Source of the DNA: Isoetes taiwanensis
Taxonomy: Eukaryota > Streptophyta > Lycopodiopsida > Isoetales > Isoetaceae
DNA: 64,000 nt
NCBI GenBank assembly: GCA_021234155.1
Contig: JAJEKV010000034.1
Span: 4,379,781-4,443,780 of the forward strand
Reading direction: 5' to 3'
Numbering within the stretch: the stretch's first letter is position 1; each line of letters begins with the position of its first letter. The notes beneath the pieces are model-generated. The model had not been told where the DNA came from and did no database searches. It was given only the letters and a program-made list of their open reading frames with translations. Below, piece by piece: positions 1-55,464 of the stretch. The position numbers were made by a program, and so were the translations under genes.

Positions 1-427
1 CATAATTTTATGGTCTAAACAGAACCATAATAGCAGCCCTGATCAAGCAAGGGCTAAAGGAAAAAGACACATTCACAAAAGCAGAATAGCTGGTTGGGAC
101 ACGTAAAATTTGGGTGGGGCATTTTCTGCCCCATCCGCCAATCCCTGTGTGCCACGTGGCACGCATTCTTTCCCAGAAACAGTGATTCTTCGAGTCTATT
201 TTTTCAGAATCACTGATTCACCAAATTTTCTCTGGTATGTTTTTAACTCAAAAATATGTTTTTCAAACACAGTTATACCAGTTATATTAAAACACAGTTA
301 TACCATTACAGTTATAAAATCAGAACATTCAGTTTTTCATTCAATTCGAGAACACTCCGCTTTTGTAACATTCAGTTTTTCATTCAATTAAAGAGATTAC
401 AGAGATTTCTGATCCAGATTCCAGAGA

Positions 428-2844: not shown

Positions 2845-3510
2845 TAAAACAAAGAAACAATAAGACGCCAGACAAGAATCAAACAAGAATCAAGCAAGAA
2901 TCAAACATTCTTACTGAAAGGAGGTGCTCCAGTCGAAAAAGGTCCAGAAAATACCAGAAACACACAAGGAAGTGCAAGATCCACCAAGAACTCTCCAAAT
3001 CTGTGGCTCTCTGCATGAAAATGGGATCAAAGGAACGAGCAGGCCAAGCCGTGTAAGAAAAGTGGAAGAACCAGTGCATGCAACACGCCTAGAGGCCTGG
3101 CGCCATAGCCGACGCCATAGCCGGAGCTCGGCCAGCCAAAATGAACAGTGAACAGTGAACAGTGCAGAAAACAGAACAGTCGGACGCGCGTCGGCCAATT
3201 TTCTAGGCCGAAATCCTTACCACCCAAACATTCCTATATACATAAAGCACAAACCACCTAAACTTTTCAAAGAAGAAAAAATTGCATCGGCGAAGGGCGA
3301 TGGACGATTCATATTAAGCGAAGGCTTTCAGAGGTAGAAGGCATTTGGCATGATCCACTAAAATTCAAAAAGTGAGAACCAGATCCTTGGAATGGAAAGT
3401 CTTTACAGATTTCAATGAATGTACTTGGCATGTTATACAAAAACCTGAGAGGAAGAAGGAACTTGGTAAAGTTGGAATTGTAAGCATCAACTTGAGATGG
3501 ATTAAGGGTG

Positions 3511-4051
3511 CTAATATACCTTCAATGCCCTAGCTCTTCTTTCCTGAACTTTTCTTCCTCTTGTGGGTCCTCTATGGCGTTTCTTCTTAACAATCCCTTC
3601 ATCATTTTCGTTTCGAGCAGAAACAGCATGCGGAAGCTTCGTCTTTTCCAAGATCACCTGAGGAACAAATATAGGCCCAGACATGTGCAGAAGCTGCGCA
3701 GGGGAGACAGCCCTAATCTGACATTGAAATCTATAGCAGTCCATGGGCAGTACATTAATCCTAATTAAACCAACATGAGATTTACGAAATACCCACAAAC
3801 GCTTGTTGTCCAGAGACCACGTTATCCCGTTCTGATCCTTCACAATGTGCATGCTTGAAAAAGCTGTTGGACATAGCTCCCCACTCTGGATCATGGCGGC
3901 CGCATCGTCTATCCTTTGCTTGGCATGTTTGTATTTGGGACTGAAATATATTCCAATTATGGGCACAGAGAAGCGCAGGTCCTGAACTTGCTGTTGTCGG
4001 AGTTGCGCCTATGGTGGATTCAGAGCCCCAGTCAGATTCTGGCTGTGTCAT
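3511..4051 (-). pseudogene. Decayed ParB/sulfiredoxin-fold-like protein
   Basis: Two overlapping minus-strand frames join into one protein if a single frameshift near 3963 is allowed: an N-terminal stretch beginning MTQPESDWGSE (from 4051), then a frame running from about 3966 to the stop at 3511. The second part contains IQSGELCP, a short spacer, then ITWSLDNKRLWVFRKS. The pattern 'indices, then sLDNRRLWvf' is typical of small ParB/sulfiredoxin-fold domains common in plants and protists. The C-terminus is basic (KKKRHRGPTRGRKVQERR), as in nucleic-acid-binding tails. No introns are needed. The similarity is to a motif only, so the function is unknown. The frameshift makes a pseudogene the simplest reading. 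Confidence 0.4.
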
Positions 4052-4951
4052 CGTATTGCCATAAACAATCTATGGTTCCAGAATGGCTTGTCTTAGTCTA
4101 ATTGGAATGGCTTGTCTTAGTCTTTGGTTTCTTCTTATTTTTTTCGATATCTGCTGAGTCTAGATCCAATCCGGCTATGGCGATATTAGATCCACAAAGG
4201 GCGACTTTGGGGGTTAGGAGAAAGGATTCATGCAAGGGCAGTTGACCCCATCAGGAGGTCTTTAACTAAGTCAAGACCGTTTCTAACATGCACCGGATTT
4301 ATGCACAGGTCCACTGGTGAGCAGAAAAAGGCAGACTCTTATAGTATCATCGGGAGGCGAAGTTAAGGCCAGGTCTCTCAATTGACATTTTTCTTTGCCT
4401 TTGCGGTCCATCTCTGCAATGTCTCCCCTCACCCAAATCCGTTGTTTTCCTTATTCCTCTGTTATGAGCCAAGTTTCCTTTTCTATTCTATTCTTTTGAG
4501 CCACCAGATTGAACCAACCCTGAGATCTCAGAACTCCTATCGCAGCATAGCATGGCATGAACAATCTCGCAGCACAGCATGAACAGAGCAGAGGACCCCT
4601 GTTCTTTAGAATCTGGCTGCACATGAAGGGACGGCTATGGCGCCAGATTGTTGAGCCTCTGAAGGCCGCGATGTGCAAAATATATAGAAGCTTCTCCTTG
4701 CTGCCCGCCATAGCCAACAGCCAGATATGCAAGCGGCTTAACCTTTCTGGCCGGAAATATGTATGGTGCAGCATCACCAAGCCAACAAGGTCGCCATAGA
4801 AGATCGCTATAGCTGGAAGCTCTTCAGATTTTATAGAAAACGGGCTTGAAATGCAGAGTCGGAATGGCATGCAATATGCACTCCGGGTATGGGAGGAGAT
4901 CCCAGCTCTGATCAATATGGTCTTGGGATCCGCTGAGATCAATTTCCTACC

Positions 4952-5129
4952 AAAAAAACCAAAATACCCCTACGAGTTTGTGTAATTACCAAAATGCGCT
5001 TATGAGTTTCAAAATTACCAAAATGCCCTTGTGTATAGTAGGTGTGTAGGGGCATTTTGATAATTTTAAAACTCATAAGGGCATTTTGGTAATTACACAA
5101 ACTCATAGGGGTAGTTTGGTAGTTTTCCC
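4952..5129. mobile_element. Foldback (MITE-like) inverted repeat
   Basis: Bases 4952-5034 are nearly the reverse complement of 5046-5129, separated by about 11 bases. Both arms contain the repeated phrase ACCAAAATGCCC/TTATGAGTTT. The arms differ at only a few positions, so a transcript would form one long hairpin. It has no coding capacity. It could be a MITE-like foldback element or a locus giving hairpin small RNAs. Target duplications could not be assigned. Confidence 0.75.
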
Positions 5130-5319
5130 ATTTCCTAAATACAGAGATGTTAGTCGGCTTGCAGAGCAAGAAAGGAAAATGAAGTGCAAATAAAAAAGAG
5201 AGAAGTTCAAATGAAAAGCGAAACATAATACGTGTCAACCGGAAAGCCAATTTCAACGAAAATCTAGCAAACAAAATATTGCGGACAGAAAAGGAAACTG
5301 CATTATATAAGAGTGATAA

Positions 5320-5925
5320 AGTTAGTGGGGGAAGGCCACACTTTAACCATGTACAGTGGTGGGGGCAGGTCTTATCTGGGTAAATTTCGGCTTCTTAGGA
5401 TGATCATATGTAAAGTTAATGGGGGAAGGACCCACTTCAGCCATTTTCAGTAGGGGGCAGTTCTTATCTGGGTAAGTTTTGGCTTCTCTGGTGGGCCATG
5501 TATAGTGGTGGGGGGTAAGTCTTATCTGAGTAAGTTTCGTCTTCTTTGAGGGACAGGTCCTGTCTGGGTAAGTTTCGGACTAGGTTCTATCTGGGTAGTG
5601 GGGGAAGGACCCACTTCAGCTTTGTACAGTGGTGGGGGCAGGTCTTATGTGGGTTTGTTTCACTTCTCTGGTGTGGGGCAGGTCCTATCTGGGTAAGTTT
5701 TGGCTTCTCTGGTATGTGTAAGTTTGGGCTTCTCGTGAACATTAAAAACTATATGAATCTATCTATACGAAACTCTTGGTTTGGGAAGACCCAGGTCCTA
5801 TCTGGATAAGTTTCGGCTTCTCTGGTGTGGACAGGTCCTATATGGGTAACTTTGGGCTTCTCTTGAACATTAAAAACTATACGAATCTATCTATTTGAAA
5901 CTCTTGGTTTGGGAAATTACCTGCA
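5320..5925. repeat. Degenerate minisatellite with nested 58-bp duplication
   Basis: The phrase GGCAGGTCTTATCTGGGTAA, followed by GTTTCGGCTTCT, recurs at irregular spacing at least seven times from about 5350 to 5830, with variants of a linker (GTGGGGGAAGGACCCACTT). A longer unit beginning CTTGAACATTAAAAACTAT and ending ACTCTTGGTTTGGGA occurs at 5736-5789 and 5861-5914, with a diverged third copy at about 5968-6029. Open frames here are by-products of the repeat. Confidence 0.7.
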
Positions 5926-5929
5926 GTCT

Positions 5930-6740
5930 TCTAAGCTACCGCCATCTAGGTGTGTGTCCTATAAGTTTCGAGTTCTCATGGGCATTAAATTCTATACCTG
6001 CCTATCTATCCTAATTGGTTCGGGAAATTCTCTAGAAGTCTTTTAAGTTGTGTAGATTTGAAAGTTCACATTGCAGTTTGAAAAGGGCAAAAAAATTTCC
6101 TGCTAAAAATAACGATTGCAGTAGTATGTATGGTCATATTATAATCTGTGGAAGTAAACATAGTGTAGTTACAAATTCTGTGGAGGTCATCATCCATAAG
6201 CACAGTTGAAGATATATGATATCATCTGGAGGATTAGAATGATTATAGCTAGCTAAACATTAGGTTGAGTAATGGACCTAAGATTACTAGGTTATTGTAT
6301 TTGTACAAGGTTGGAAAGCAAATCAACCTATCAATGGTTATAGGCGGTCAAATGGCATAGGGATAAGCTCAGGGGTTAAAATATGGAAGTATGGAGTGAA
6401 ACCGACGAGGAGCTTTGGGTGCCGATCCTTCATGAATTGGTACCGACTGAACAAATGTATAAGAAGGATTGATGCTTGTTAAATAAATATAGAGATTGGA
6501 TTGGATTCATTAGAGGATGAATGCCTATGCTCTCGAAGTAAGTTCCTATTGCTACAATGTTTGAAGTATTCCCTTTTGAACAGTGTTTCATGTTGTGCAA
6601 TAGCTACAGTAACTTCATTATAATCAGTGCATTTTTTATAATTGTTATATTGTAGAACATGGTTATTTGAAGCTTGTCAAGGATAAATATTAGATTGTTA
6701 TATTAAGTTTGCTAGACATTTCATTTGCTATTTCCTATCA
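5930..6740. other. No gene seen; probably includes 3' part of a copia LTR
   Basis: AT-rich DNA without a credible reading frame. It ends with CA immediately before the primer-binding site at 6742, so its right-hand portion is probably the end of a Ty1-copia 5' LTR. The left LTR boundary could not be found because no second LTR copy exists in the window. Confidence 0.4.
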
Positions 6741-6741
6741 T

Positions 6742-6853
6742 TGGTATCAGAGCCAGGTTTAAAATGTCTAGCAGGTTTGGAGCATCACTTTTGAGTGGTA
6801 CTAAGGTGTATGAAGGTGGTCCTGCATTTCAAATATGGAATAACAAAAGATGA
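6742..6853 (+). mobile_element. Ty1-copia remnant: primer-binding site and gag start
   Basis: TGGTATCAGAGC at 6742-6753 is the standard plant primer-binding site complementary to initiator tRNA-Met. It is followed by ATG at 6764 and a 29-codon frame (MSSRFGASLLSGTKVYEG, then PAFQIWNNKR) resembling the start of copia Gag, 'GtkvYdGgpaFqiW'. A stop follows at 6851-6853 and no pol sequence is recognisable downstream. The element is therefore a truncated stub. Confidence 0.75.
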
Positions 6854-6939
6854 ATTAGGAGCCCTTTGTCAGAGTAGAGGTCAGAGGCTGTGGAATCATT
6901 TATGCCAGGGAGGTCAATGAAATCCATGCTATCAGAAGC

Positions 6940-7419
6940 TCACTTAATAACATGATCGTCACAAGAAACAACATTGAGTAAAGCATTTTTATAAGATAAA
7001 AAGTTATGACCTTTTGCTTTGTCACTTTTGCCCGGAACTGGAATCCGGTTGCATATGCGATGGTCCCCCACTTTAGTACTTGTCCTATTCAACCCTAAAC
7101 CATTGATTTCTTCGCAATTCTTGCAATCGCATTGTCCAGTTTCTGACGGGTTGAAGAATCCATTGACGTCCCTGATTTTGCATGTTCTAGTATCCTTTTT
7201 AAGCTTAATCTTATAGGTCTCATATTTCTGAGTTGCTTCTCCCAGAATTTGATCCACCCCCAAAGGTAGCTTGCTCATGACCTGTTTCCGATGCCTTTCA
7301 ATAACACGGTCTTCAGCCTCTTCCCATCTTTTTATTAATTTGATCGAAGCTTTCGATTCGAATTCCACTGGAGGCTCTCCAAATCGATCAAAGTCTTCTT
7401 GGCCAGGTTGTGCATCCAC
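6940..7419 (-). CDS. Hypothetical protein, charged, Cys-containing
   Basis: An uninterrupted 159-codon minus-strand frame starts MDAQPGQEDFDRFGEPP. The first half is charged and probably helical (LIKRWEEAEDRVIERHRKQ). The second half has a CDCKNCEE cluster plus further cysteines (TCKI, RICNR, VSCDD), which could bind a metal. I recognise no family. It begins directly downstream of the copia stub and may belong to an element. The length without a stop in AT-rich DNA argues mildly for real coding, possibly as one exon. Confidence 0.35.
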   Translation of the reverse strand: MDAQPGQEDFDRFGEPPVEFESKASIKLIKRWEEAEDRVIERHRKQVMSKLPLGVDQILGEATQKYETYKIKLKKDTRTCKIRDVNGFFNPSETGQCDCKNCEEINGLGLNRTSTKVGDHRICNRIPVPGKSDKAKGHNFLSYKNALLNVVSCDDHVIK

Positions 7420-8637
7420 AGCTTACAACAGCGTTTTCGCTGCCATTATTGCCGTCTAGCTAGACGTGACACTAATAAACGATTGTTGCATCTCATAAAT
7501 TCCGGCTAGAGAAGTCTGACTATAAAACTTCAGTCCACAACACTTCGCAGATAAATGGTTCTGGCATCTTGCTTTTCAGCTTCACACCCACATCATGGAT
7601 ACTCAGAAAAGAGATTCATCTCCAGAGTATCAGAAGCTTTTGAGCCTCCGGGGTCACTTTAGATAATAGACCAAATCTCAGACCTCTTTCTGCTATCTTC
7701 AATCTTCTTTCACCGCTTCCACAAATTCACCAAAGAAATTAAACACCATCATTCAAATTCTTATTGGGTATAACCCGTACCTTGGTAGGCATGCATCATG
7801 CTGATAATTCGTTTAAGGCCCAATCATGCTGATAATCCGTATAAGGCCCAATCGGCAGTGGCCGATCTGTTTGCAGTAGCTTCCACTGCACACTTCATTG
7901 TTTTCAACAGCTGGTGATGAGCCACTCGATTTCAAGGTGCTCACCTCTTTTCTTTAATGGTTATTGGAAGCATTACCTAAGTTTTTCATTTAATTTTATT
8001 GGTTCTATGACTGACTTTTTGTCAAAACTATTTAATTTACTCTTAGCTTGCAGGATGTAGTCTGAAACCGACTAACCACAGAAAATCATTTCTCTCTGAA
8101 TCTTCATTCTTTGCATTTTCATTTTGCCAGGTCTTCTTGTTTGGATTTTAATTTAAAATTGGCTTATACCATCATTTCGTTTTTTCTAGTCTTTTTAAGC
8201 AATTTTCTTCGAGTTTGCTTCAAGTTGCTTAACGTTACTCTTGATATGAAGACCACAGCATGGCCACAGCTCCATAGATTTAAAGAGCTCAATTGATCTT
8301 CTCCTAGTTGTGTAGATGTGAGTGCAAGTCGTTATAGCCTATGACCTCCAATCAACACCGCCATCCCTTTATTTTTCCGACTTGCCATAGCCATCAAATC
8401 GTTCAGTTCTGTTAAACATATTGATATGTTTTATTCGTAAGCTTTTATATCTCAAGGTCTGTTAAATCACAAAACCTCTGACAGCCAGACGACCCACTCT
8501 TTTCGTAATCCAGATTCCGATCGGTACATTCCAATGCCATCAAAGTTAATCCGTTGTTGCTCCATGCTGTTGTCGCCAGTTTACATCATTCTTTATTTTG
8601 TTTTTGGTGTATCAAAACAATTATCTCCTAGACGATA

Positions 8638-17872: not shown

Positions 17873-18420
17873 TGTATAGTCATGGACTTCGCGAAGGAAT
17901 TGTTGACGACGTGAAAATTGTCTGGAAAGAGCGTGGGATCCTTGGATGATAATGTACCTGAGAGAAGATATTGTTGGTAGTCGTGGAACCAGTGTGACGT
18001 GGTCGTGACTAAAAAGAGTTGAGCATCTAGAAAAGTGTCTGAAACTCCTGATGACGGATCATCGGTGTGGATGCATGAGAGATAATTAGGCACCACATCA
18101 GACTTTCCTGCCTTGTGAATAATTTCAAAGGGAGCAAAGTCTTGTAGTAGTAGCACCCAGTGAGCAATGCATTCCGTGGGCATGGTTTTATTGATCAGAT
18201 AAAGCAGAGCTTGATGATCTACGAAGAACTTAATTTTGCTACCTTGCAGATAGTGGCGGAACCGTTACATGCAAGAAATGAGTCCAAGCGCTTCCCATTC
18301 TGTGGCAGAATAATTCTTCTCCACAGGGTTGAGTTTTCCTGCTCGCATAACGAATCGGCTTGTCTTGTTGAGAGTTATACTCTTGTGAGAGAACAACATT
18401 GTTGATCCAACACAGCTTGC
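17872..18420 (-). pseudogene. Ty3 RNase H domain, decayed and fused to gag
   Basis: Minus-strand frames contain the Ty3 RNase H signature: NNVVLSQEY, PIRYASRKLNPVEKNYSAT, EWEALG, then RFRHYLQGSKIKFFVDHQAL and LQDFAPFEIIHKAGKSDVVP. A frameshift separates the NPVEKNYS part from its upstream frame and a stop interrupts before RFRHYL. The protein begins abruptly within the first strand of the domain, directly joined to gag sequence, so the reverse transcriptase that should precede it is gone. Confidence 0.8.
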
Positions 18421-19276
18421 GGAGGAGGTTGTTGCTTCTGCTGCTACTGAGGAGCGCGTAGAGGTTTCCACAAAGTGGGTCGTGTGGGCCGTGGTTCCCA
18501 TTCGCCACCCAGAATTGATAGGCCGTAAGGCGCACTGAAGCAGTCTGGTTAGTACTCGATAACTGGACTTGAACTTGGGGAAGTTGTGGGCACGCCGTGG
18601 TAGTGTGGCCCCATTCCCTGCAGTGATAACATTGAGCTTTAGCTGGGTCAAAAGGAGCACGGGAGCCTTCAGAAGGTTGTTGTTGGAGATCATTGAGCTG
18701 CTTGAGGAGTTGTTGATCATCATCTGTGGTACCATAATGAGACAAAAAGGTCACCTTCATTTCTTGCCAGCTTTGTTTCCAAAGACTTTTATTGACCATG
18801 GGCCATTGATGGGGAGCACCACGTAGCGTGATGGAGAAAATATGAAACTTGAGTTGGGGCTGAGAGTGCCCGTTTAAAATAGTGAGAGCTTCGAATTCCT
18901 CCCACAAATGGGTTTGCCTTTAGCATTGCCAAAAATAGGATATGGAAGCTTGAGCTGGAAAGCCGTTGAGGTAACTTGAGTGATACAGGATTGCCAGAAA
19001 CATAATGAGTTTGAGGCACAGAAACTTGGGTGTAAAGTGGTGGTGCAGAAGGATAAGCATGGCCTTGAGGCAAGGCAGAGGTGTGTGAACAAGGCATCTG
19101 TGTTGGAATAGTAAATCAGGAGGTTCAGAATGTTTGGTGTCATCTGGGGTCAAACCCTCTGCATCCTCTTTTGTCAGAATGAGATCACCCATGTTGTACA
19201 CATTGACAGGTGGTTGAAAAGATGGTGATGACTAATATTCGTGGTTAGGACCAAAGGAAACCTGAGGGTAGCCCAT
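18421..19276 (-). pseudogene. Ty3 gag with CCHC zinc knuckle, decayed
   Basis: The frame begins MGYPQVSFGPNHEY at 19276 and continues through a second stretch beginning MYNMGDLILTKEDAEGL. It includes a capsid-like part (FHIFSITLRGAPHQWPMVN, WQEMKVTFLSHYG) and a CCHC knuckle CYHCREWGHTTTAC near 18635. An early stop and several frame changes interrupt it. Gag normally forms the retrotransposon particle and binds RNA through the knuckle. Confidence 0.8.
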
Positions 19277-23543: not shown

Positions 23544-23581
23544 GTAAGTAGTCTTTGCATAGGAATTTGAAGAGGAAAAAT

Positions 23582-24061
23582 ATGGCAGAGAGGCAAGGGC
23601 AGTATATTGGAGTGCGAATGAGAAAATGGGGCTCCTGGATTTCTGAAATCAGAGAACCCAACAACAAGAAGAGGCTGTGGCTTGGCACATTTCCGAGCGC
23701 TGAAATCGCAGCTCTTGCACACGACATTGCAGAGCTGGGTTTCAAAGGAAAATACGCGGCTCTCAATTTTGAAGAATCGAAACAGATAGAGATCCCCAAT
23801 ACTTTGTCTGTTCAGGCCATAAGGGCTGCTGCCTTCGCTGTGGCAGATAATCTGCTCACAGAAAAGCGTGAGGCTGAGGCCCGAGGTGAGAGTGAGGCCC
23901 GAAGTGGAAGTGGAAGTGAGGGTGAGGCTGAGGCTGAGGCTGAGGGTGAGGCTCTTTTTGAGATGCAATGGCATGAGCATGATGTTGAAATCCAAGCTCC
24001 TTTGCCAGATCATTCTTACATTGACGAGGAGCTTTTTCGAAATGCCCAGCATTCTTTGTAA
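23582..24061 (+). CDS. AP2/ERF transcription factor, DREB-like
   Basis: An intronless frame of 159 codons. The AP2 DNA-binding domain occupies about residues 7-65: [20 protein letters not shown], then [20 protein letters not shown] and a closing YAALNF. Conserved features of the three-stranded sheet and helix ([13 protein letters not shown]) are intact. The spacing and the [15 protein letters not shown] signature resemble DREB subfamily members (A-4/A-5 type). The linker at about residues 95-124 is a Glu/Ala/Gly/Ser low-complexity tract encoded by GAGGCT/GAGGGT hexamers. The C-terminus is acidic ([22 protein letters not shown]), as in activation domains. I choose ATG 23582 because the upstream in-frame codon at 23555 is TTG. 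In the family, such proteins bind GCC-box or DRE promoter elements in the nucleus. It looks intact and is probably the best functional host gene here. Confidence 0.88.
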
Positions 24062-33689: not shown

Positions 33690-35030
33690 ACAATCTAAGG
33701 GACTCTTCTTAGAACGTTAGGGAATTTACGAAATCTTTATAGAACGTTAAAAATGTAGGGAAATCTTTGATGTAGGGGGATCTTTACAGAACCTTAGGGA
33801 ATCCAACACAAATCATAGGACATTCTTTACGAGCTCTTGAAAATCTAAGGGAATCTTCAAGAATCTTGGGCAACCTTTTATGAAATCTTGGAGAACATAA
33901 GGGGTCTTCTATAATCTTAAGGAATCTAACAAAATCTTAGGGATATTTTTGTACTCACATTTGGACAACCTTTTATGAAACCTTGGAGAACATAAGGGGT
34001 CTTCTATAATCTTAGGGAATCTAACAAAATCTTAGGGATCTTTACAAAATCTTGGAAATCTACTGGACTCACATTCTTTGGGGTTGGCCAACGTTAGACG
34101 GCCTCTATATTTGAAGAATGTGGTTCTACCCCATTTTCTGGAATAACTATGTTGAGCAAAAGTATACATTGGCATCTTTCCATAAAATTTCTCACGCCTC
34201 GGAACCTAGGGTAATCTTTTTATAATTAGAGAGTCCAGAAGAATCTTTATAAAATCTTGAAAAAAGCTAAGAGAATCTTAAAGAATCTAAGAGAAACTTC
34301 ATAGAATCTTGAAGAATCTAGGAGAATCTTCATAGAATCTTTGGGAACATAGAGGAATCATGGGATAATCTTTGGGAATCTAGGTCAATCTTAGGGAATC
34401 TTACTATGGAAATCTAGAAGAATCTAAGGAAATTGTCTTAAAATCTTTAAGAATATATGGGAATTTAGATAGAATCTTGGAGAATCTAGGGATTCTTATT
34501 AAAATCTAGGGGAACCTCCATAGAATCTTGAGGGAATCTTGATAAAATCTTTAATTACCTAGAGGATTCTAGGGGGATCTTCATAGGATCTTAGAGAATC
34601 TAGAGGAATCTCAAGAGAATCTTAGGGATTCTAGAAGGATCTTTATAGAATCTTGGGAAATCTAAGAGAATGTATATGGAATCTTGGAAAATCTAGAGGA
34701 ATCTTGGGATAGTCTTTGAAAACCTAGGGGAATCTCAAGAGAATCTTAGAAAATCTAGGGATATTTTTGAGAATCTAGAGGAATCTTGATAGAATTTTGG
34801 ACAATCTACATAGAATATTGCAGAATCTAAAGGAACCTTGGGCTAATCTTCAGAAATCTAGGGGACTCTTTCACGCTGGGTGTGTTTTGAATCTACAAGA
34901 TTTTAGGAGAATCTACATATAATATTGCAGAATCTAAAGGAACATTGGGATAATCTTCAGAAATCTAGGGGAATCTTTGTAGAATGTTAAGAATCTAGAG
35001 GAATATTTCATGCTGGGTGTGTTTTGAAGG
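33690..35030. repeat. GGAATCTT-based degenerate minisatellite, about 1.3 kb
   Basis: For about 1.3 kb the plus strand is made of variants of AGGGGAATCTTnATAGAATCTT spaced roughly 10-25 bases apart, with almost no other sequence. At the right end a longer unit of about 125 bp is duplicated (about 34800-34905 and 34920-35028); each copy ends TTTCACGCTGGGTGTGTTTT or nearly so. No coding. Confidence 0.8.
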
Positions 35031-41860: not shown

Positions 41861-41864
41861 ATAT

Positions 41865-41940
41865 AACAAAGTTGCGTATTAAACGGGAGCAAATCATCGA
41901 AACGAGAGCGAAAGGAATATTCCTCAAAGATTCCTTTTTT
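41865..41940 (+). repeat. Left terminus of the 8.45-kb element, direct-box type
   Basis: The tip AACAAAG is followed 16 bases in by AAACGGGAGC and, 9 bases later, AAACGAGAGC in the same orientation. Then comes GGAATATTCCTC and AAAGATTCC. The ATAT before the tip is the putative target duplication. Confidence 0.75.
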
Positions 41941-42240
41941 TTTACAAAAAGGGGGTAAAACGAGGTTAAAAAAAAAAGGATACATGAAAATCTATTTTGA
42001 CCCCCCCCCCAAAGTGACTAAATTTTTTGTGCAACGAAAGAATTGACTTTTTTAAAGTGTCACTTTTCGTAGCAAATAGAATGTCCTTGAAGTATATTTT
42101 ACGAGAGAAACTCTAATTTCAGAGGATAAAATATTTAACAAAACATTGAAGTAAGTCCGTAACTGAAACTGTAGTATTCTCAAAATTTGAAGATAGAATC
42201 TTCATATTCACATGCAAAATTTACAGTCTTTTTCTAAGAC

Positions 42241-45200
42241 TCAGTTATGTACAAAAGTGTGAGGAGTGATGAGAGAGGGATCCAGGACGTCATCATGTTC
42301 ATTTATGCCATCATCATCACCTTCACTTCTTTCACTGTCACTAGAGGAAGTGCTTGAGTTATCTTCCTCATCACTATCAACAGATGGTGAAGCATTGCCA
42401 CCACCTTCTTCATCCTCTTCTTCAGAATTACAAGCTTTTTAAGCAAATTGATAGTCCTCCTCATGTAGACGATTGTCGATTTCAATTTAAAATCATAGCA
42501 CAATATAGTCACGCCATTAAGGATCAGCCATCCCTACAACCCACCTTCTTGACTTTCTCCCTTTTCCTTGGCTTCTCATTTCTAACTCATATCTACCTTC
42601 AAAAGCATTTTCTCGAAATGTGTTGCAAGCCAATGAATCTTGAGTTTAGTGACTAAGCCTTCCTCCTTGACTGTGTCAAGCACTTTTGCTATCCGTAAAG
42701 GTCGACCTTTGTCATCCTCCCTCGCTTGGAAGAGCAATAAGCATACCCTTGGTAATTTCGTGGATATTACCTTGAGGCTCATTCCCGCTGCCTTGTCCGA
42801 GGTACATGACTCGATCCTCGTCTTCTTCTACCGCAGTGCTAATGTAGCATTGCTTGACCCGCTTTGGTGTCGGGTTGATAGAAGGTGTTAGGCCATTGAA
42901 ATGGTTCTTGTAACCGCCTTTAGAGCTATATTTTTCACAACAATTTTCTGCTCGAGAAAGAAATTACTCCACCACATCCCATCTTCTTCTAAGAAGTACT
43001 TAAAGCCCTCGAGGAAATTCCATTTTCAATGGCTTTTAAGGATGACTCGGGTACTTTTCTTCCGCTTGGACTCCTTAGGATTTTTGAGAGGAAGTTGCTC
43101 AAAGACGCTCTATGAAGGAAGTGTCCGAATATATTTAAGGAAGCGTGAGTCCCTCCGGGTGGACTCCAAATTTTAGTTGTGGTATACTTCTTCCCTCAGA
43201 AGAAACTTTGGCCAGCCTTCAAGTAGAACTTGATGTGATGTTGAAAGGTGAGATCATTCAATTTGTTCACAAATTTTGTTCTCTCGTCCGAACGCTGAGA
43301 GAAAATAAACTCTCTCAAATCAGCAAGCCTCTTTAAGGAGATCGATCAATCGGAGTGGGAGTGTAAGAATCTTCAATAATTCGAACTAAAGTAGGAAGAG
43401 AGAAAGCCTTCTTCCTTCCTCGAGGCGCACGTAAAAATCTGTGAACATTTGGTCAATTTGATCATGAGTGTGGCCTACAAGTAAGAAACCCAGCTTCACT
43501 TTTCTAAAGATCCCTAGCTCCACTAACATGGCACAAGACGCAAAAGAGTGTTTGGTTCTTGTTCTCCCTTGTAGTATTGTCAAGTTGTAGGTAAAGCACC
43601 GGGTGGTAATTGCTCTTGCTCGCATTGTGACCTTGTTAAGAATTGTAATTGTGAGGTTCGGGTCACCATGCAAGTTTGATACGCCAAAAATACTTTGCAC
43701 TTTAGACTTCCTTTGAAGACCATAGCTCCTACAAGGTGGACCTTAACAAAACATTCCTCCGCACATCTTTAGGAATGTTCAAGAAATGCGGTAGAGTAGT
43801 TTTTTTTGGTCCATTCCATCAATCACAACAGTATATATTGCGCGGGACGCTCAAGAGCTTTTTTTCCGTGGTTTGGCAAGCTTTCTTCTCTCTCACGCTT
43901 GTTGTTCACGATGTCCGGCAAGGTTCTCATTTACAATATCCGTAGAAGAAATCAGGTCAAAGCATTTTCTTTAAAACAAGTAAGAGATTAGAAAACATGA
44001 GCTTACTTCTTTCGACCTCTGCCTTTGCGCTCGTTGACTCTTTAATTCTCGACACCTTGAGCAAACAGACATTCTATGTCTCCTGGGAATTTTCACTAAA
44101 CCGAATTCACTTTTCCACAGTCTTGTGAAGTGTGAGTAAGAGATGTGCTGAAGCTGGGTGCAAGTCTCTTTGTACTCATTAAAAACATCTTTTTTGGTGA
44201 TGTTATCAGTTAAATGATACATGTTATCGTTAGGCGCCTTCTCACATGTTTCTCTAAAATATTTCTCCATCCATGACACAGCAGCAAGGGCATGCATGGT
44301 TACAACTCTTCTTGGTCCACAATGATCATCAATTGCTGGATTTTTGTCCAGTCTTTTGTGTATTCTAGATATTCTAGTGGATCCTAAACGGTGGACAACC
44401 ATAAAGCATTTCTGGCAAACTTCTTGACGGTTAATGTAGTGCAAGAAGGTGTTGCGGTCTGGTCTTACATGATAGGCCAAGTAGGCATTCCGTCACCAAT
44501 GTCATTGAACTCAGAAGTTGTCTCTAATTGCTCGTAATTTAGCCATGTTAAATTTGTTGATGCAACCCAATGAGCAGCATTTACTTCTTAAAAGTCTTCT
44601 CATTTTATGCTCGTCCATAAGGTTTCTTCTTCTTACAGAGGAGCATGCTCTCAAACCATAATCCACCTTGAATTTCTTGGTGGACTGGCTAGAGAATGTG
44701 TAATCTCGGTGCACTTCGTTGGTGTCTTCATCTTCTGAAGAGAGTTCTACTCTGGGGGTGACCTCCTCTACCCTTAGTGGTGTGCTTGTAGAGGAGAACA
44801 AACCACGGAAGTCAGCATCTCTGATAAGGCGGAGGTGCAGTGTTGAATGAAGGAGATGGGCCACCATATGAAGGAGATGGACCAGCAAATGTTGTTGCAG
44901 CTTCTTCACAAGGAGTTCGCTCAAACATGTCTCTTAGAGCAGACCAAAATTCCGCAAACCCATGTGTCACCACGCTTGTGTGAAGAGGAGTGGATGATGC
45001 AGGTCGCCTTCATTTGTAGTGAAGTCTTGTGGGAGAAGTCAGGAGAATCTCGCAGCCTTCTTAACGTCTTGTATTCCTTTGTTTGTGGAAGTGAAGATGG
45101 AGAAACTACAAATGGTCGAGGTAGTCCTGCTTCAAAAATTTTCCGAGGTCGAAAGTGTTTGTGGTGTCTCCGGGATGGTACAAATGGTGGTGGAAGATTG

Positions 45201-45397
45201 CTACGCGGCAACATGTGAGGGTTGGAAAGGTGGTGGCAGCCGGTTTCCACCGGACTTGGAGAGGGTTGGAAAGGTGGTGGCAGCCTACTAGTTACCGGAC
45301 TCCTGAGTGTCTTCGAAAGCAACAAAGACCTTGTCGAGGTAGGTGTTAGAGAAGCCGCCCGCCTTGTGTTCCATCCGAGGTAGAGGTACTTGGGCAA
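42241..45397 (-). pseudogene. DUF7869-type protein (presumed transposase), decayed
   Basis: Minus-strand blocks in order: a Pro/Ser/Arg-rich N-terminus (45397-44921); acidic and Cys segments ending CCSLGCINKFNMAKLRA (44924-44511); a block with VCQKCFMVVHRLGSTRISRI, then YSHFTRLWKSEFGLVKIPRR and CSRCREL (44480-43990); a putative intron; NLAGHREQQ and VVIDGMDQ (near 43820); CAMLVELGIFRKVKLGFLLV, then VGHTHDQIDQM (near 43480-43445); a Lys-rich region; GRPLRIAKVLD; and an acidic tail ending at 42241 (EHDDVLDPSL). IDGMDQ plus LVGHTHDQIDQMF is the hallmark of the DUF7869 family found in many eukaryotic repeats. At least four frameshifts or stops interrupt it. A transposase role is inferred from its position inside a TIR element. 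Confidence 0.75.
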
Positions 45398-45571
45398 ACA
45401 AATGGTGGTGGAAGTTTGTTCACGAACCGTTAACCATGTTAAACAACCGCAAAAAATTGTGGACGTGTTAGTAACTCACAAGTCGATTGAGTAATGATAT
45501 TTGAGAATACAAATGCTATTCCTAATACTAATTTTGTGTGCAAAGATTTGTCGTGTGTGCACAGATGCTAT

Positions 45572-46200
45572 TCCAGAATACACTTTGCCAGAGTGTTTGG
45601 ACAAGACGTATTCCGCATCACATAGAAAAGCACAACTGACAGTTGCCTACCTTTAAAAAGGAAAATTGAGCCTCGGGCCATGTATTCCGCCCCCGAGATT
45701 TAGTCGCCAGCCGAGCCTTCGATCTACATCGATTTGTCAGATTCCGCTTTACATAGCTTAAAAATAATGGACAGTAAGCAATTAAAGTACAAGACGTCGT
45801 TCGTGTGTTTCCCCGATTTGCTTTTTAGAACCCGTGAGTGTATTCCGTATCACACTTTGAGCTTCGCTTAAAGCAAAGTGTATTCCTGAATACACTTTGC
45901 CCTTCGGGCCGAAGAGCAAAGTGTATTCCTAATACACTTTACCCCCCGATCGAAGTGCAAAGTGTATTCCGGAATACACTTTGCCCTTCATGCGAAATGC
46001 AATGTGTATTCCGGAATACACTTGGCCCTTCCAAGTGTATTCCGGAATACACATTGCATTTCGCATGAAGGGCAAAGTGTATTCCAGAATACACTTTGCC
46101 CTTCGAAAGGGCAAAGTGTATTCCGCTATTCCACTGAAGGGCAGGAATACACTTTGCTCTTCGACTGAAGGGCAAAGTGTATTCCGGAATACACTTGGCT
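45572..46200. repeat. Palindrome array 1, GTGTATTCCGGAATACAC
   Basis: At least ten copies of AGTGTATTCC(G)GAATACACT or near variants lie at about 45572, 45876, 45927, 45960, 46002, 46033, 46074, 46112 and 46175, joined by GGGCAAAG and CTTTGCCC linkers. Centred near 46030, about 65 bases on each side are nearly exact reverse complements, including CCCTTCATGCGAAATGCAAT. The array sits in the gap between the two divergent genes. ORFs rich in VYSGIHFAL/ECIPEYT words here are repeat translations. Confidence 0.85.
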
Positions 46201-46959
46201 TGTCTTCTTGAAAACACTAGTTTTGTTGCACCTAAACTCACCACTTTTTAGCGGAAACAGACTCGTTTCATGTTAAATATACCACTTTTTAGTCCAATTA
46301 AGGCATAAAAAAATGTGTTGTAGCGACATTATTTAGGCTTGTTTTTCTGTTTTTTGGTGGCGTTTAGGGCAAAAGATTAGTAAATCTTATTCTGGAATAC
46401 ACTTTCGTCCCCATTTCCCTGCCTTAACATTGTTGTTTTAAACGCTTCAAAGAAAGGGAGGAAGGAAGCAAGAAAGCACCAAAGAAAACTCGAAGGTGAG
46501 GCTTCCACACCCCCCGTAAAAAACAAATGGACACCTGACGCGCTTCGCAATATATACCTAAAACTTTCAAACGCAGCGGTACATAACCGTGGGTGCGGAT
46601 TTAAAATACAAAGACAATCGACGCTTCAGACGCCCCCAAAAAAGTGCCGGGAACAAAAGGTACGCCGACACCGAAGTTCGTTAACCTCGACAATAAAAGA
46701 GGTCTCGAGGTTGCCTGGACAAGGAGGTCAGCGGGAGGCTATCCTTCAAAACCTCCCAAGGCTTCATTGTTGTAGATCTCGTATTCTTTCTCAATTGTCG
46801 GGCAGCAACCACCGCACTTTATAAATTCTTTTTTCACTACCGGACCAAACGAAGCCTCCGCTCACTAATCGCACAGGTTTGTTCGAGTACAAGCGAGACT
46901 TTCCGCGCCGCTGAGTCCGAAAGTGCTCGATGCGTGCAGATCGTGATCATCACCTTCGC

Positions 46960-49950
46960 TAGTACTTCCGGGAATCATCGATGGAGGGTCGCAAGAACAA
47001 GACGAGGAAGTTCCCCCAAGCCGCCAAAAGAAACCTAGCAGGCCAAGAGACACCATAGCCGCTAAGGAACCAAAAAAGCTTAAGGTACAAAGAGCTTGAA
47101 GTGGCGTAAATTCCCCGATGAACAACCAAAAACGAAGAAGGAAAAGGGCAAGGCACCCGGGTTGCCATTAAAGAAAAGAAGGTGGACAAGACCTCGTGAG
47201 AGGATGGAAGCAATTAATCGTAACAAGTATGTGCAAGGTGTAATATACTTTGCCAAGAATCTTCCATGAGGTTGCCACCAAGAATGCAGATGGTGAGCCT
47301 TCGTGTTCGCAAAAATTTATGCCGACCACTTAAGAAACTGAGACAGATAAGGAGCAATCCCAATGCCCATGTTGCTCCAATTGTTGTTCTTGTTGATAGA
47401 TCCCAGTGCATGGACCCCAAGGACTACGACAGAGAAAAAGTACACCTACATGCACTATGTCCTTGGGGAAACCACGCTTCAAAGCCAAGAGGCGCTTGTA
47501 CAAGGAGAAACACAATCCAAGGTATCTCTCTCAGGCTCATTGCTTTTATCGTGGGTCTCGACAGACGAAGAAGCAAAATCGCTGCCAACACGCACAATGC
47601 CGACAACTAATATAAGCTTAAGATGAGTTTCATTCGACAAAATCGGTTCATGCACAGGAATATGTAATATTTAAAGAAAAAATATGGAGATGATTTGAAG
47701 AAACCACAATACTCTCCTCGAACTGAAGGAAGCGCAGGCCGTGGAGTGCAGCCTTTAAATACGACGAGGCTAACAAACGGCAGCCTCTAATACCGCATCG
47801 CAAACCGGTTCCAACTAGCCTTTAGAGACGGGCAGAGTAAGTTCTCAGATTCGAATACACCCGCAGCTTTTCCCATTGACATCGCTTTTGTTTCGGCAGA
47901 TTTGGGACCTACAAAACGAAATCTTCACCATGTTCGAAAGGCAGATTTGAAAAGCAAAGGAAAGGTCTCTAAAAAGAAAAAAGGATCCGACGTCCCCAAA
48001 AAGGAAATGACTATAACTGCTTACGAAAATGCGTGGCTTCACAGATATGGATATACTAGAAAGGCTACCGCAAAAAGTTGTTGACAAGGAGTTCACACTA
48101 GAAGAAATGTCCAAAGAGCTCCACAAGTAAGAATGCCACTTTGGGTTTTTGTTTGCAAAGAATAAGTGTTTTCCGAATACACATTGTACACTTTGTCCTC
48201 ACGAAGAGACAAAGTGTATTCCGAATACACTTTGCCTTTACACGTGGAGGGTCGGTGTATTCCGAATACACATTGTCTTGCAAGCAGGAGGGCCGGGTAT
48301 TCCGGAATACACATGGCCTTGCAAGTTGAGGGCCAAGTGTATTCCGAATACACTTTGCCTTTACAAGCAGGAGGCCCGGCGTATTCGAATACACTTTATG
48401 TTACTGCTTTTTAAATGATTCATTCTTGTTGTCGTTTTTTGTTTTCTCCTTCTAACGCTCAGATAATAATACAGCCTTAAAAATGTTATCACATGTCAAA
48501 CATGCTTAATGGAGCGCTTAAATGTCGACAAACCGGGAAAGGTGCAAGGAGCTTTACCCTCAGAGCAACCCCTGACGAAAAAGGATTGTCCAATATGCTT
48601 CCAAATTTTGAAGGTCGGGTATGATGAATTGTTTTTCAAATTGTTGTTCCTCTTGTTATTAAGACGCTTTTCTTGCAGCAAGAAGAAAAAAACAAGGACC
48701 CCGCCGGAGGGATTTATGCATCTAGTCGACAAATAAAGAAGAGAGGACGCCAAGGACAGCGTGTTTTTTGGACATCGAGCCCTCCGACTACTTAACGGTT
48801 TACAATGTACGACCAAAACAATCTGTTTCAGATAGTACACCTGCGATCGCACCAAACTAGCCGAATCAATAAAGCCCCGTGATTTTACCTTGGTAATTGC
48901 CGACCTTCCATATGGGTTTAAGCTAAAAGACAAACCGCCACGACGACCAGCCATTCAAAAACTCGAGTTCAATGCTTTCGCCGACGGCATAAAGCAAATT
49001 ACCAAGGCAAAACATTGAGGTCGGTTGTATTTCACTCTAGCATGCAATCCGCCTTGTGGAAGCCAAATTTTAAGAATCATTTTGTTTCGCCTGCGCAGTT
49101 GGTTATGAAAATCTTGTTTGGTGAGCACTTATTCGAAAAAAGTACCCAAGTTCTCTTGTTTTTAATACCTTCTTTTATTTGTAGTTACAAATGTAGCATT
49201 TTCAAATTCTTCTTAGGAGTTTCTATTCCTAATACGCTTTTTTTGGTCAGATTTAAATCCTTCTTTGAAAAATTGTTCCTTAGGTACAAAACAAATATTA
49301 ATTACCATGGTGGTGGCCCACGATCGCCGAGTAAGGTCGAATATCTCCATGTGGCTTATTGAGTTTCGATGGGAAACGCATAATGGAACACTTCAACACG
49401 CCGCTTGCCGTAACTTTTCAAACGCGTTGGAGTTTCCAAATGCGGTTGCGTAAGCCGCAGGACCCTAGTGCACAAGGAAGAATAGTAAATCACTACCAAA
49501 AGCCACGTAAGTCGATTAACCATCTTCCTCGATATGTTTTCACGCCCGAGATTGGGTGCTCGACGATTTTCCGGCTCGTACAACTATTGCTTGTGCACTT
49601 AAGAAGGGCCGAAATTGTGTAGTCATGACATCGATAAGGAGGATGTACGCTTCATCAAGATGAGACTTTTCTGCCTTTACCAACTCTACCGCATTTAGAA
49701 TCAAGAGTTGGGGCAAAGTCTAATTCTCGATTTTGCTAAGATGACATCTTCTGAGATACGTCCCTCCTTTCACAAGCTCTTTGAAGACGAAGCTACATTT
49801 GCAGAGCTTAAGGAAGTTGCTCTAGCTACAATACCTGAAGCAGCCACCAACACAGAAAAGCCTAAGTCACCAGAGAAAGGTGAAACGAAAGAGACTGATC
49901 AAGCTGAGACCAGCAAGAAGAATGAGGAAGACTTTAATTTAGATCTCTGA
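46960..49950 (+). pseudogene. Beta-class amino DNA methyltransferase gene, decayed
   Basis: Plus-strand blocks: a Lys-rich start (FPDEQPKTKKEKGKAPGLPL, about 47110), further basic segments, DLKSKGKVSKKKKGSDVPKK (about 47944), a Cys-containing stretch ending TKKDCPICFQILK (about 48560), then the catalytic part. Motif IV reads LVIADLPYGF at about 48888-48917. Downstream comes RKPQDPSAQGRIVNHYQKPR, motif I as VLDDF (49555) with TTIACALKKGRNCVV (to about 49624), and, one frameshift later, DIDKEDVRFIKMRL. The order IV before I is that of beta-class N4-cytosine/N6-adenine methyltransferases. An acidic C-terminus ends at 49950 (KKNEEDFNLDL). Stops and frameshifts break it, and palindrome array 2 lies inside the locus, probably in an intron. 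Substrate base cannot be deduced. Confidence 0.68.
48165..48405. repeat. Palindrome array 2, same unit, inside the methyltransferase locus
   Basis: Seven or more copies of GTGTATTCCGAATACAC (with CCG, CCGG or TCG centres), joined by linkers such as TTTGCCTTTACAnG and GCAGGAGGCCcGG, spaced about 40-50 bases. The unit matches array 1, 2 kb upstream. It lies between coding blocks of the methyltransferase. Confidence 0.85.
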
Positions 49951-50259
49951 CGGATTTTTGTTGTGGCTACTGATTGACATTTATTATTTATTGCCATTAT
50001 TGGCCATTATTGATATAACACAAAAACAGTAATGAAATTATTATTATTATGTTTACTAAATTTGTGTTTTTTGTACATCCACCTCTATATAATTACGTGT
50101 TCATGTCTCAATTCTGCTATTTTCACGTGCTTAACTCCAAACACCAAAGTCATGTCCAAAGAATAGCCCAAAAATAGGCCCAAAAAAAAATTGATAATCC
50201 TGAAACTTTAAACCTCTCTTAAAAAAGCCTAATTTTTGAAGTAAAGTGTTTTTTCTAAA

Positions 50260-50313
50260 GGAATCTTTCAAACGGGAGTGCTGCAACACTCCCGTTTAAT
50301 TTGCAACAGTGTT
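50260..50313 (-). repeat. Right terminus of the 8.45-kb element, inverted-box type
   Basis: Plus-strand order is GGAATCTTTC, AAACGGGAGTG, six bases, CACTCCCGTTT, AATTTGCAACAGTGTT, then ATAT. The two boxes form an 11-bp stem. Confidence 0.75.
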
Positions 50314-50317
50314 ATAT

Positions 50318-52307: not shown

Positions 52308-53073
52308 AAAAGCCACTTCCTTAGCTAAGTAATTAATTGTACATCCAAACCGGAGTCTTTAAACTTACACTTCCCAGCCTTAAAATCTGTAAGGACTCCC
52401 CGACCGCAATCTGCGTGAAATTCCCTCGTCAAGCAATCCCTAGGCTAGCCCCATCTCCAGGAACAAGCCCATATAATTATCTGATATTCAAATTATTAAT
52501 AAGTTAATTTCAAACAACAAGTTTCTACATATTTTCTTACTTTATATTTCCCCAATCTCCTGCAACTGCCTGGACTTACCTTGTGAATGCTCTCTGCTCA
52601 ATCCCAGCACAATTCAAGCATGTCCACCTCATGTTTCCCCTTTTATCTTATTATATTCAGTATTTTTTTCATTAGTAACATTTCTTTAATATGCAACCAA
52701 CAGAATATTAACATTCAATAAATTAATTAACAACACAAAACAGGAAACCAACAAGAACCTATTTCTGATCTGAAATCCGGACCCCTAGTTTAATTAAATC
52801 TATCTTGATTCCTTCATTTCGGCCCACAAATTTAACAATAGCACAGCAGCATGTGCAAATCGAATCCGTTCCTGGCAGCCTATGCAATCTCATGGAATCC
52901 AATCTATTGGAACTAAACCCCACCTGATAAGAAAAAGATCTGATGCAAGTGAAAGCTCCAAGCTCTTGCCACCGATGGAATTCCTCCTCCGCTATCCCGT
53001 CTCCAAAATCTTTCTCAATTTGCCTCTCTAGATCATAAAGATTTCTGCTTATTTATAGTTCTATCCTACATGC

Positions 53074-53165
53074 ATATTCTATCTTGCATGCATGCCAAAC
53101 ATGCATGCGTCTATCTTGCATGCATGCCAAACATGCATGTTTTATCTTGCATGCATGTCAAACTT
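53074..53165. repeat. CATGCATG-rich tandem units in the LTR
   Basis: Units of about 32 bases built from TCTATCTTGCATGCATGCC and AAACATGCATG repeat three times. The same block recurs in the other LTR at about 55315-55408. ATGCATGC runs make alternating purine-pyrimidine tracts. Confidence 0.75.
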
Positions 53166-53478
53166 GTATATACGTGCATGAGTACATATACTGACCCATC
53201 AACTGGCCAGGATCATTACAGTCTCACCTTCTAAAATTTAACCCATGTCCTCATGGGTCACTATGGATATACTGAAGCATTCTATGATTCAAATGTCAAA
53301 TCTAGCACAACTTTAACTCAAATCAAAACTTCACCTTAGAAGTATAACTGCTATCCATCCTACTGAGCATACCATGAGAAGAACCCTTACCTCAACTTGA
53401 TCTATGATACACCATCTCAATAGCTAAGGATCCAACCTGTAATCTGTAAACAAATATCAACACCCAAAGATCCAACTT

Positions 53479-53491: not shown

Positions 53492-55464
53492 ACTGTAACA
53501 AGCATGCCGAGTTGACCCTCATGGCAACTCAGGATCTTGTCTAAACTTGCAGTAATTCTAGGTTGAAAGTATTGGTGAAGAATTGAATCTTCTTACTCAT
53601 AATAATCAGATATCAACCATAGTATATCCATTATCAAATACAATAATATCCAGAGAAAATACTATCATCAATTCATTCACGACATCTAGTTGAGCAATTT
53701 AACACAAGAGCTTCTCCTCTGGAACTCAACGACGATCCCCGACTACACTACTGCCGCTAGCTTGACTATTGCTTGCTGATCCACTGCACAATGCACTCAA
53801 GGGGTTAGTCCTCGTGATTCAAGTGGGGATCCCATAGTCGCCTCGCATACATGAAAACACTCGAATCTTGATAACAAACATAAGAACTCAAAGACACGAG
53901 AACCTATGGTGCAATGCTAGACAATGACAACCAAGAAACAACATAAACATCAGGAGCAAAGAACATAATCAAAGTACCAAATCATCATAAACAAACTTCG
54001 GGACAGTGGGTAGCTCAGCCAGCCTACATACATGCCCCCCATAGCGTGGATAACGCCACCAGCCTTACATTCCAAGCCCTGTAGCGAGGTGGTGGGGTGA
54101 ACCTCGTATGCGCATACCCTCTTAGCCCACGTCTGGCACTGGAGGACCTCTTACCATGGGAGTTCACAAGAGTTGATCGACGAGCAATCCCGCCGAGAAC
54201 TAACGCCCCGTGTCACAGAGGACAAATACAAAGAACATAGAACATGAGTCATGCCGGAGCAACTTAGGTCACCGAACCTAGAAGTCCGACCCCGAAGGAT
54301 CCAAATACATAAATAAACATCAAGCATTGTGACATAATAGCTATGACAACAAATGTAATGTTCCTTAAAATATTTCCTAGACAAGTGTCTAAACCATACC
54401 CCGGCCAAGGTTGCCCATACAACCTGCCCATATTGGGATAGTAATTTCAGTGGCAAAATCTTAACAGCAACCCACTTGTCGATGCATCGTGCTCAATTAA
54501 CTGCTACCAATTCGCATTATTAATTTAAGACCCTTAGCTATGGTTTTTAGAATTTTAATATGAAAAGCCACTTCCTTAGCTAAGTAATTAATTGTACATC
54601 CAAACTTTAAACTTACACTTCCCCAGCTTAAAATCCGTAAGGACTCCTGACTGCAACTGCGTGAAATTCCTGTCAAGCAATCCCTAGGCTAGCCCCATCT
54701 CCAGGAACAAGCCCATATAATTATCTGATATTCAAATTATTAATAAGTTAATTTCAAACAACAAGTTTCTACATATTTTCTTACTTTGTATTTCCCCAAT
54801 CTCCTGCAACTGCCTGGACTTACCTTGTGAATGCTCTCTGCTCAATCCCAGCACAATTCAAGCATGTCCACCTCATGTTTCCCCTTTTATCTTATTATAT
54901 TCAGTATTTTTTTCATTAGTAACATTTCTTTAATATGCAACCAACAGAATATTAACATTCAATAACTTAATTAACAACACAAAATAGGAAACCAACAAGA
55001 ACCTATTTCTGATCTGAAATCCGGACCCCTAGTTCAATTAAATCTATCTTGATTCCTTCATTTCGGCCCACAAATTTAACAATAGCACAGCAACATGTGC
55101 AAATCGAATCCGTTCCTGGCAGCCTATGCAATCTCATGGAATCCAATCTATTGGAACTAAACCCCACCTGATAAGAAAAAGATCTGATGCAAGTGAAAGC
55201 TCCAAGCTCTTGCCACCGATGGAATTCCTCCTCCGCTATCCCGTCTCCAAAATCTTTCTCAATTTGCCTCTCTAGATCATAAAGCTTTCTGCTTATTTAT
55301 AGTTCTATCCTACATGCATGTTCTATCTTGCATGCATGCCAAACATGCATGCGTCTATCTTGCATGCATGCCAAACATGCATGTTTTATCTTGCATGCAT
55401 GTCAAACTTGTATACACGTGCATGAGTACATATACTGACCCATCAACTGGCCAGGATCATTACA

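Follow-up and report, generated by a model that had tools for sequence, protein, structure and literature searches.

We analysed a window of 64,000 nucleotides from Isoetes taiwanensis (assembly GCA_021234155.1, contig JAJEKV010000034.1, positions 4,379,781 to 4,443,780), to which all positions given below refer. The segment 41865-50313 is a decayed copy of a transposon of 8.3-8.6 kb with terminal inverted repeats (TIRs). It carries two divergent genes, one for a protein with the domain DUF7869, very probably a transposase by its predicted fold, and one for a putative DNA methyltransferase with a ParB-like domain, as well as two arrays of palindromes (Table 1).

Table 1. Features of the transposon copy in the window (L002 is a related locus described below).
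Feature	Position	Strand	Basis
Target duplication, left copy, ATAT (4 bp)	41861..41864	.	Sequence; 4-bp duplications in 12 of 13 two-ended copies
Left TIR, transposase side	41865..41889	+	Arm pairing; first 100 bp with at least 40 scored genome matches
Subterminal GGAATATTCC, from end position 50	41914..41923	.	End comparison
DUF7869 gene, predicted DDD transposase, frames broken	42244..44807	-	PF25273 match, homologues, predicted fold
Palindrome array, core GTGTATTCCGGAATACAC, between the divergent genes	45838..46199	.	Palindrome scan; in all 13 two-ended copies
ParB-like + beta-class DNA methyltransferase gene (putative), frames broken	46982..49950	+	Homology for pieces within 47341-49627
Second palindrome array	48210..48397	.	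Probably corresponds to where the L002 gene has its first methyltransferase intron
Subterminal AAAGATTCC, common to Azolla-associated methyltransferase-side ends	50260..50268	-	End comparison
Right TIR, methyltransferase side	50289..50313	-	Arm pairing; at least 40 near-full genome matches
Target duplication, right copy, ATAT (4 bp)	50314..50317	.	Sequence; copies in the same genome

Ends of the element

The inverted arms, counted with the flanking ATAT on each side, measure 29 nt (41861-41889 and 50289-50317) and are 86% complementary. Of the 29 positions 25 match, whereas 500 block shuffles of the two end regions, 600 bases each, gave 19.4 matches on average and never more than 23. The matching ends and ATAT flanks named in an earlier reading of this DNA (the original prediction) were thereby recovered, and a chance inverted repeat is ruled out by the shuffles together with the duplications in the copies described below. 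In a search within the window the joined flanks match only themselves, and an empty site of this element was not found there. Just inside the right end lies a foldback with 11-bp arms (50270-50297) that repeats the AAACGGGAG part of the end; as single-stranded DNA it has a z value of -3.5, and 2 of 200 shuffles were equally good.

Copies in the I. taiwanensis genome

The genome (1.66 Gb, 1110 contigs) was searched with both termini. The left-end query, the first 100 bp, yielded at least 40 scored matches at 95-100% identity, and the right-end query at least 40 near-full matches and one short one, the window's own counted in each case; these counts are lower bounds, drawn from 1296 and 1230 first-look candidates, respectively. 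From 20 of the 39 other left-end places we fetched 9.9 kb each, which together with the window makes 21 copies. Thirteen of them have two recovered ends, and 12 of these 13 are flanked by perfect 4-bp duplications that differ from one another, namely ATAT (window), GAAA, AAAA, GAGT, AAGA, ATGC, GTGG, CATT, TAAG, TTGG, TATG and GATA, which supports the boundaries originally proposed. The AAAA duplication (locus L024) could be as long as 5 bp, its flanks being rich in A.

All 13 two-ended copies contain both genes. The transposase gene is covered in the 12 fetched copies and the window, and all three query parts of the partner gene occur in each, although their extent varies. Because both genes lie inside the ends in every such copy, the reading of a host gene beside a transposon was rejected. 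Many copies are decayed; four of the 21 (L031, L034, L036 and L039) keep methyltransferase motif I in frame, and the window copy is dead. The two proteins of the original prediction are indeed encoded here, but both are interrupted by stops and frame shifts.

Relatives in Azolla-associated contigs

A scan of genome contigs for relatives resulted in twelve loci (L001-L012). Eight of them (L001-L008) are contigs binned into the metagenome-assembled genome (MAG) 'uncultured Trichormus', the genus of Trichormus azollae, which is the cyanobacterial symbiont of the fern Azolla. The DUF7869 genes of these loci are mostly long, the partner gene of L002 has GT..AG introns and the L002 element is surrounded by a Ty3/Gypsy-like open reading frame (ORF); the eight loci are therefore taken to be fern DNA carried along in the cyanobacterial MAG. 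They also represent an apparent contamination of a reference genome. A divergent partner gene, whole or in part, is present in all five loci with more than 1 kb upstream of the DUF7869 gene (L001-L004 and L008), while the contigs of L005-L007 stop 0.55-0.68 kb upstream of it. The TIRs of L008 comprise 34 nt and match at 94%. The L002 element (391-8114) lies inside the Gypsy-like frame with the duplication AACA, and removal of the element and one AACA leaves the retrotransposon frame open. The single-target empty site expected by the original prediction could thus be reconstructed, but a real empty allele was not found. Since A is the first and T the last base of the element, L002 alone would also allow a 6-bp duplication, TAACAA; 4 bp was preferred because the copies in the I. 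taiwanensis genome show 4.

The ends of the window element pair by role with those of the Azolla-associated elements. Its transposase-side end scored better against its counterparts than 300 of 300 random 70-mers of the window, and the methyltransferase-side end better than 298 of 300; with the roles crossed, the ends surpassed 271 and 293 of 300. Common to both groups are AACA..TTGCG-like tips and the subterminal motifs GGAATATTCC and AAAGATTCC, the former, or a one-base variant, starting at about position 51 on the transposase side of L002 and of most other Azolla-associated elements. In correction of the original prediction, AAACGGGAG occurs at both ends of the window copy but is absent from the Azolla-associated ends. 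No convincing TIR pair was found around the DUF7869 genes of L009-L012 among the five longest repeats per locus. L012 is a DUF7869 contig in a bacterial MAG, with no partner gene in view.

The two proteins

The DUF7869-type protein of the original prediction was readily recognised: the ORF at 43386-43742 on the minus strand, one piece of the broken gene, matches PF25273 (E 2.3e-17), and minus-strand frames of the element contain the motifs IDGMDQ, QLDNTT and VGHTHDQIDQ. Structure prediction points to an RNase H/integrase fold, with VIA matches, and a C-terminal part that is weakly BAH-like. Residues D336, D417 and D459 are invariant, the candidate third acidic residue being Asp in all 23 aligned sequences. 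Based on this model, the protein is very probably a DDD transposase. Named relatives come from a liverwort (Riccia), a fern (Adiantum), molluscs, a lancelet and a sea urchin, and P0017, a near relative of the window transposase, has the top score against the Azolla-associated proteins among those collected. The name DUF7869 was not found in the open-licence papers searched.

The outer limits of the partner gene are presumed from an ATG and the last stop. Its window copy is collinear with the L002 methyltransferase (tblastn, best piece E ~1e-9, 30% identity), and the spliced L002 protein matches PF01555 above the cut-off (E 1.8e-14). The order of motifs is that of the beta class, with motif IV before the FxGxGTT-like motif I. 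The methyltransferase motifs announced in the original prediction held for motif IV (ADLPYG), but motif I is degraded in the window (DWVLDDFPARTTIACA), whereas DAFSGSGTTIACA is found in four of the 21 copies. A model of the partner protein matches the ParB/sulfiredoxin N-domain fold (mean predicted local distance difference test score, pLDDT, of 62; 61-85 in the blocks of the ParB region). Judged from its sequence, the partner is a protein with a ParB-like domain and a beta-class, CcrM-like methyltransferase. CcrM and other beta-class adenine methyltransferases share the catalytic domain and bacterial ParB shares the ParB fold; in contrast to these, both are fused here in one eukaryotic transposon protein to which an N-terminal domain is added.

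With the broken window sequence as query, no relatives of the methyltransferase were matched. The spliced L002 protein gave 18 close matches among the 7994 best word-sharing candidates scored, so that the absence of other partner relatives says little. The one named protein among the 18, P0096 of the fern Ceratopteris richardii, is 62% identical across its match to the ParB-containing part. A viral origin of DUF7869 or the partner was also considered; two scans of viral contigs by short peptide patterns gave no relatives.

Selection on the gene pair

The original prediction proposed a mobile unit with TIRs, a 4-bp duplication and both genes, and regarded the joint action of the genes as inference. 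Both genes lie between TIRs in all 13 two-ended copies, 12 of them with a duplication, and the pair recurs in the Azolla-associated contigs. That the genes belong together is more than inference, because the pair is found in 13 of 13 copies in the I. taiwanensis genome and in five of five informative Azolla-associated contigs, where both genes are under purifying selection. There, the ratio of nonsynonymous to synonymous substitution rates (dN/dS) of the transposase ranges from 0.07 to 0.15 across the 19 unsaturated pairs of 28, and that of the first methyltransferase exon is 0.08 in the sole unsaturated pair of ten; the remaining nine pairs in each set, saturated in the proportion of synonymous differences (pS), lack a dN/dS and were excluded. 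Across methyltransferase residues 589-812, L002 and L001 differ with a proportion of nonsynonymous differences (pN) of 0.076 at a pS of 0.718. When L036 is compared with other copies in the I. taiwanensis genome, the second catalytic methyltransferase exon shows pN 0.055 at pS 0.423 (L034) and pN 0.065 at pS 0.427 (L039); with L031, little constraint is seen (pN 0.130 at pS 0.190). The pooled pN/pS of the partner is 0.43-0.54; the pooled values, up to 0.67, are higher because decayed and frame-shifted copies are included. The enzyme is kept under selection in at least some copy lineages, while many copies decay.

These data bear on the alternative that the methyltransferase is a captured passenger, of host or bacterial origin, that is useless to the element. 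Transposons often carry passenger genes, the window enzyme is broken and motif I is in frame in so few copies. However, the constancy of the divergent pair, the strong purifying selection on the Azolla-associated methyltransferase and the constraint on the exon of L036 relative to L034 and L039 argue against it, and we regard it as very improbable.

Palindrome arrays

Both arrays are present in each of the 13 two-ended copies. The window element contains 10 perfect palindromes with arms of at least 9, compared to a mean of 0.17 and a maximum of 2 in shuffled sequence, and the remaining 55.5 kb of the window contain 6. Among the Azolla-associated loci, there are 10 in L004, 8 in L003, 3 in L007, 2 each in L002 and L008 and 1 each in L001, L005 and L006 (30 shuffles each: means 0.07-0.30, maxima 1-2), so the counts of L001, L005, L006 and L008 taken alone are within chance. 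In L001-L007 every palindrome is placed upstream of the transposase gene, which in contigs that show both genes means between them; L008 is without the upstream region and has its two elsewhere. The exact half-site GTCGATGC occurs 56 times in L001-L006, all but one of these on the upstream side of the transposase gene, and not at all in L007 and L008. Successive palindromes of the L004 array are spaced by 50-52 bp; in the window array, four of the seven steps between perfect palindromes measure about 42 bp. Both spacings are near whole helical turns. Between families the palindrome sequence varies while the arrangement is kept. In the other lineages, a CTCGATTACGCGTAATCGAG-type palindrome occurs seven times in L012 (at 55-301, 1517, 2470 and 2539), which comes from another host; L010 has two of a kind, L009 one and L011 none. 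We read the palindromes as putative docking sites for a protein, whichever it may be.

One candidate is the transposase, or the arrays might be promoter repeats, without being sites of the ParB-methyltransferase. The subterminal GGAATATTCC and the window array share the half GGAATA, and L012 has repeated palindromes with no partner in view; yet the arrays are central and occur in the partner's own intron, away from the ends. We give this reading close to an even chance. A more elaborate possibility is self-recognition, in which the regularly spaced palindromes would be parS-like loading sites from which the ParB-methyltransferase would spread and methylate adenines of the element only, so that the element marks itself or counters silencing. 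A sequence that differs while the arrangement is kept would then be expected, because site and protein would co-evolve; we nevertheless consider this reading rather doubtful. Palindrome arrays of this kind, and land-plant members of this kind of transposon, were not found in the open-licence papers searched.

Classification

According to published accounts, Sola transposons have a DDD transposase and 4-bp duplications, are mostly 2-9 kb in size and have been reported from moss, with termini that vary widely (PMC10741241); Sola has also been annotated in the Ceratopteris genome (PMC6890710). The Sola1-1_Ec32 element of the brown alga Ectocarpus encodes a ParB-like protein with an N4C/N6A methyltransferase opposite the transposase, and its authors propose that this protein would bind the transposon that encodes it and mark it; cases from green and red algae are credited there to Iyer 2011 and Petroll 2025 (PMC12477816). 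The claim that no named superfamily fits has therefore to be given up: Sola matches in the DDD residues, the 4-bp duplication and the occurrence in moss, and the pairing of a Sola1 transposase with an opposite-strand ParB-methyltransferase is already published. By its description, Sola1-1_Ec32 is a large DNA transposon as in the present case, but at 21.5 kb it exceeds the 8.3-8.6 kb of the element studied here, which comes from a land plant. A methyltransferase does not feature in the description of Sola in general (PMC10741241).

KDZ (Zisupton) membership was rejected, because the duplications are 4 bp here and 7-8 bp in KDZ (PMC12730594). Other transposons are known to carry DNA-modifying enzymes. 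Virus-integrated Mariner transposons likewise combine a transposase and a methyltransferase, but have a Mariner transposase, an extra endonuclease and other methyltransferase families. Fungal transposons carrying TET/JBP, likely as an anti-silencing device, differ in that the enzyme is a dioxygenase and the transposases are KDZ, Plavaka and others (PMC12730594). Alternatively, the elements could form a new superfamily unrelated to Sola, in which the duplication length, the DDD residues and the partner gene arose convergently. The likeness to Sola by description and not by sequence, and the variable Sola termini (PMC10741241), leave room for this; the same kind of opposite-strand partner in Sola1-1_Ec32 (PMC12477816), the DDD transposase and 4-bp duplications of Sola (PMC10741241) and its annotation in Ceratopteris (PMC6890710) make it unlikely. 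By analogy, with Sola compared by description, membership in Sola1 is likely. Altogether, we consider it highly probable that the element is a DNA transposon of the cut-and-paste type, with Sola1 as its most likely group and with a predicted transposase and a ParB-methyltransferase.

Several observations weigh against this picture. Foldseek matched the transposase only weakly (best E 5e-3), and the transposase parts in the I. taiwanensis copies are weakly constrained (pooled ratio 0.67), as is the catalytic methyltransferase exon between L036 and L031. Motif IV reads ADIPYG or ADLPYG, the usual form being DPPY or SPPY, and GGSHS or GGNHS stands in the ParB-like domain where a GERR box is expected in ParB. 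The right end is missing from the fetched 9.9-kb stretch in eight of the 21 copies, and L040, whose doubtful right end has only 74% identity, is without a duplication. Of the three two-ended Azolla-associated elements, L002 is the sole one with a duplication, L001 and L008 having none. Finally, no methyltransferase homologue was found in L009-L012; these contigs are short, yet L011 extends more than 4 kb upstream, and DUF7869 elements of other lineages may lack the partner.

Other features of the window

Outside the element, a direct repeat of about 0.9 kb (52308-53220 and 54563-55464, 97% identical, 1.3 kb apart) was noticed, at whose edges no obvious target duplication was found. The window also contains a single-exon ORF with an AP2 domain (23552-24061, plus strand), in keeping with a plant host, a retrotransposon gag-like ORF (18239-18919, minus strand) and decayed tandem repeats of GAATCTTA-like units (33866-35007).

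Proposed mechanism and implications

We strongly infer that the DUF7869 transposase would cut at the AACA..TTGCG-like ends and join these, staggered by 4 bp, to the target DNA. The ParB-like domain might steer the partner protein to the two arrays, one lying between the genes and the other within an intron of the partner gene. The protein would methylate the DNA of the element itself, at adenine or, with lower likelihood, at cytosine-N4. Such methylation could tune the shared promoter or allow escape from host silencing. This array-steered marking of its own element is plausible, although we put it at somewhat less than an even chance. To our knowledge, there is no accepted N6-methyladenine (6mA) system of such a kind in land plants.

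The element does not define a new class; with good support, it adds a new land-plant member to a transposon group about which little is known. DUF7869, an uncharacterised domain, can now be assigned to what is very probably the transposase of elements whose ends are well defined. The domain is also tied to a ParB-methyltransferase described so far, in the papers searched, from algal transposons, an enzyme that selection keeps in related copies. Should this enzyme indeed mark the transposon that carries it, plants would possess adenine methylation supplied by a mobile element.
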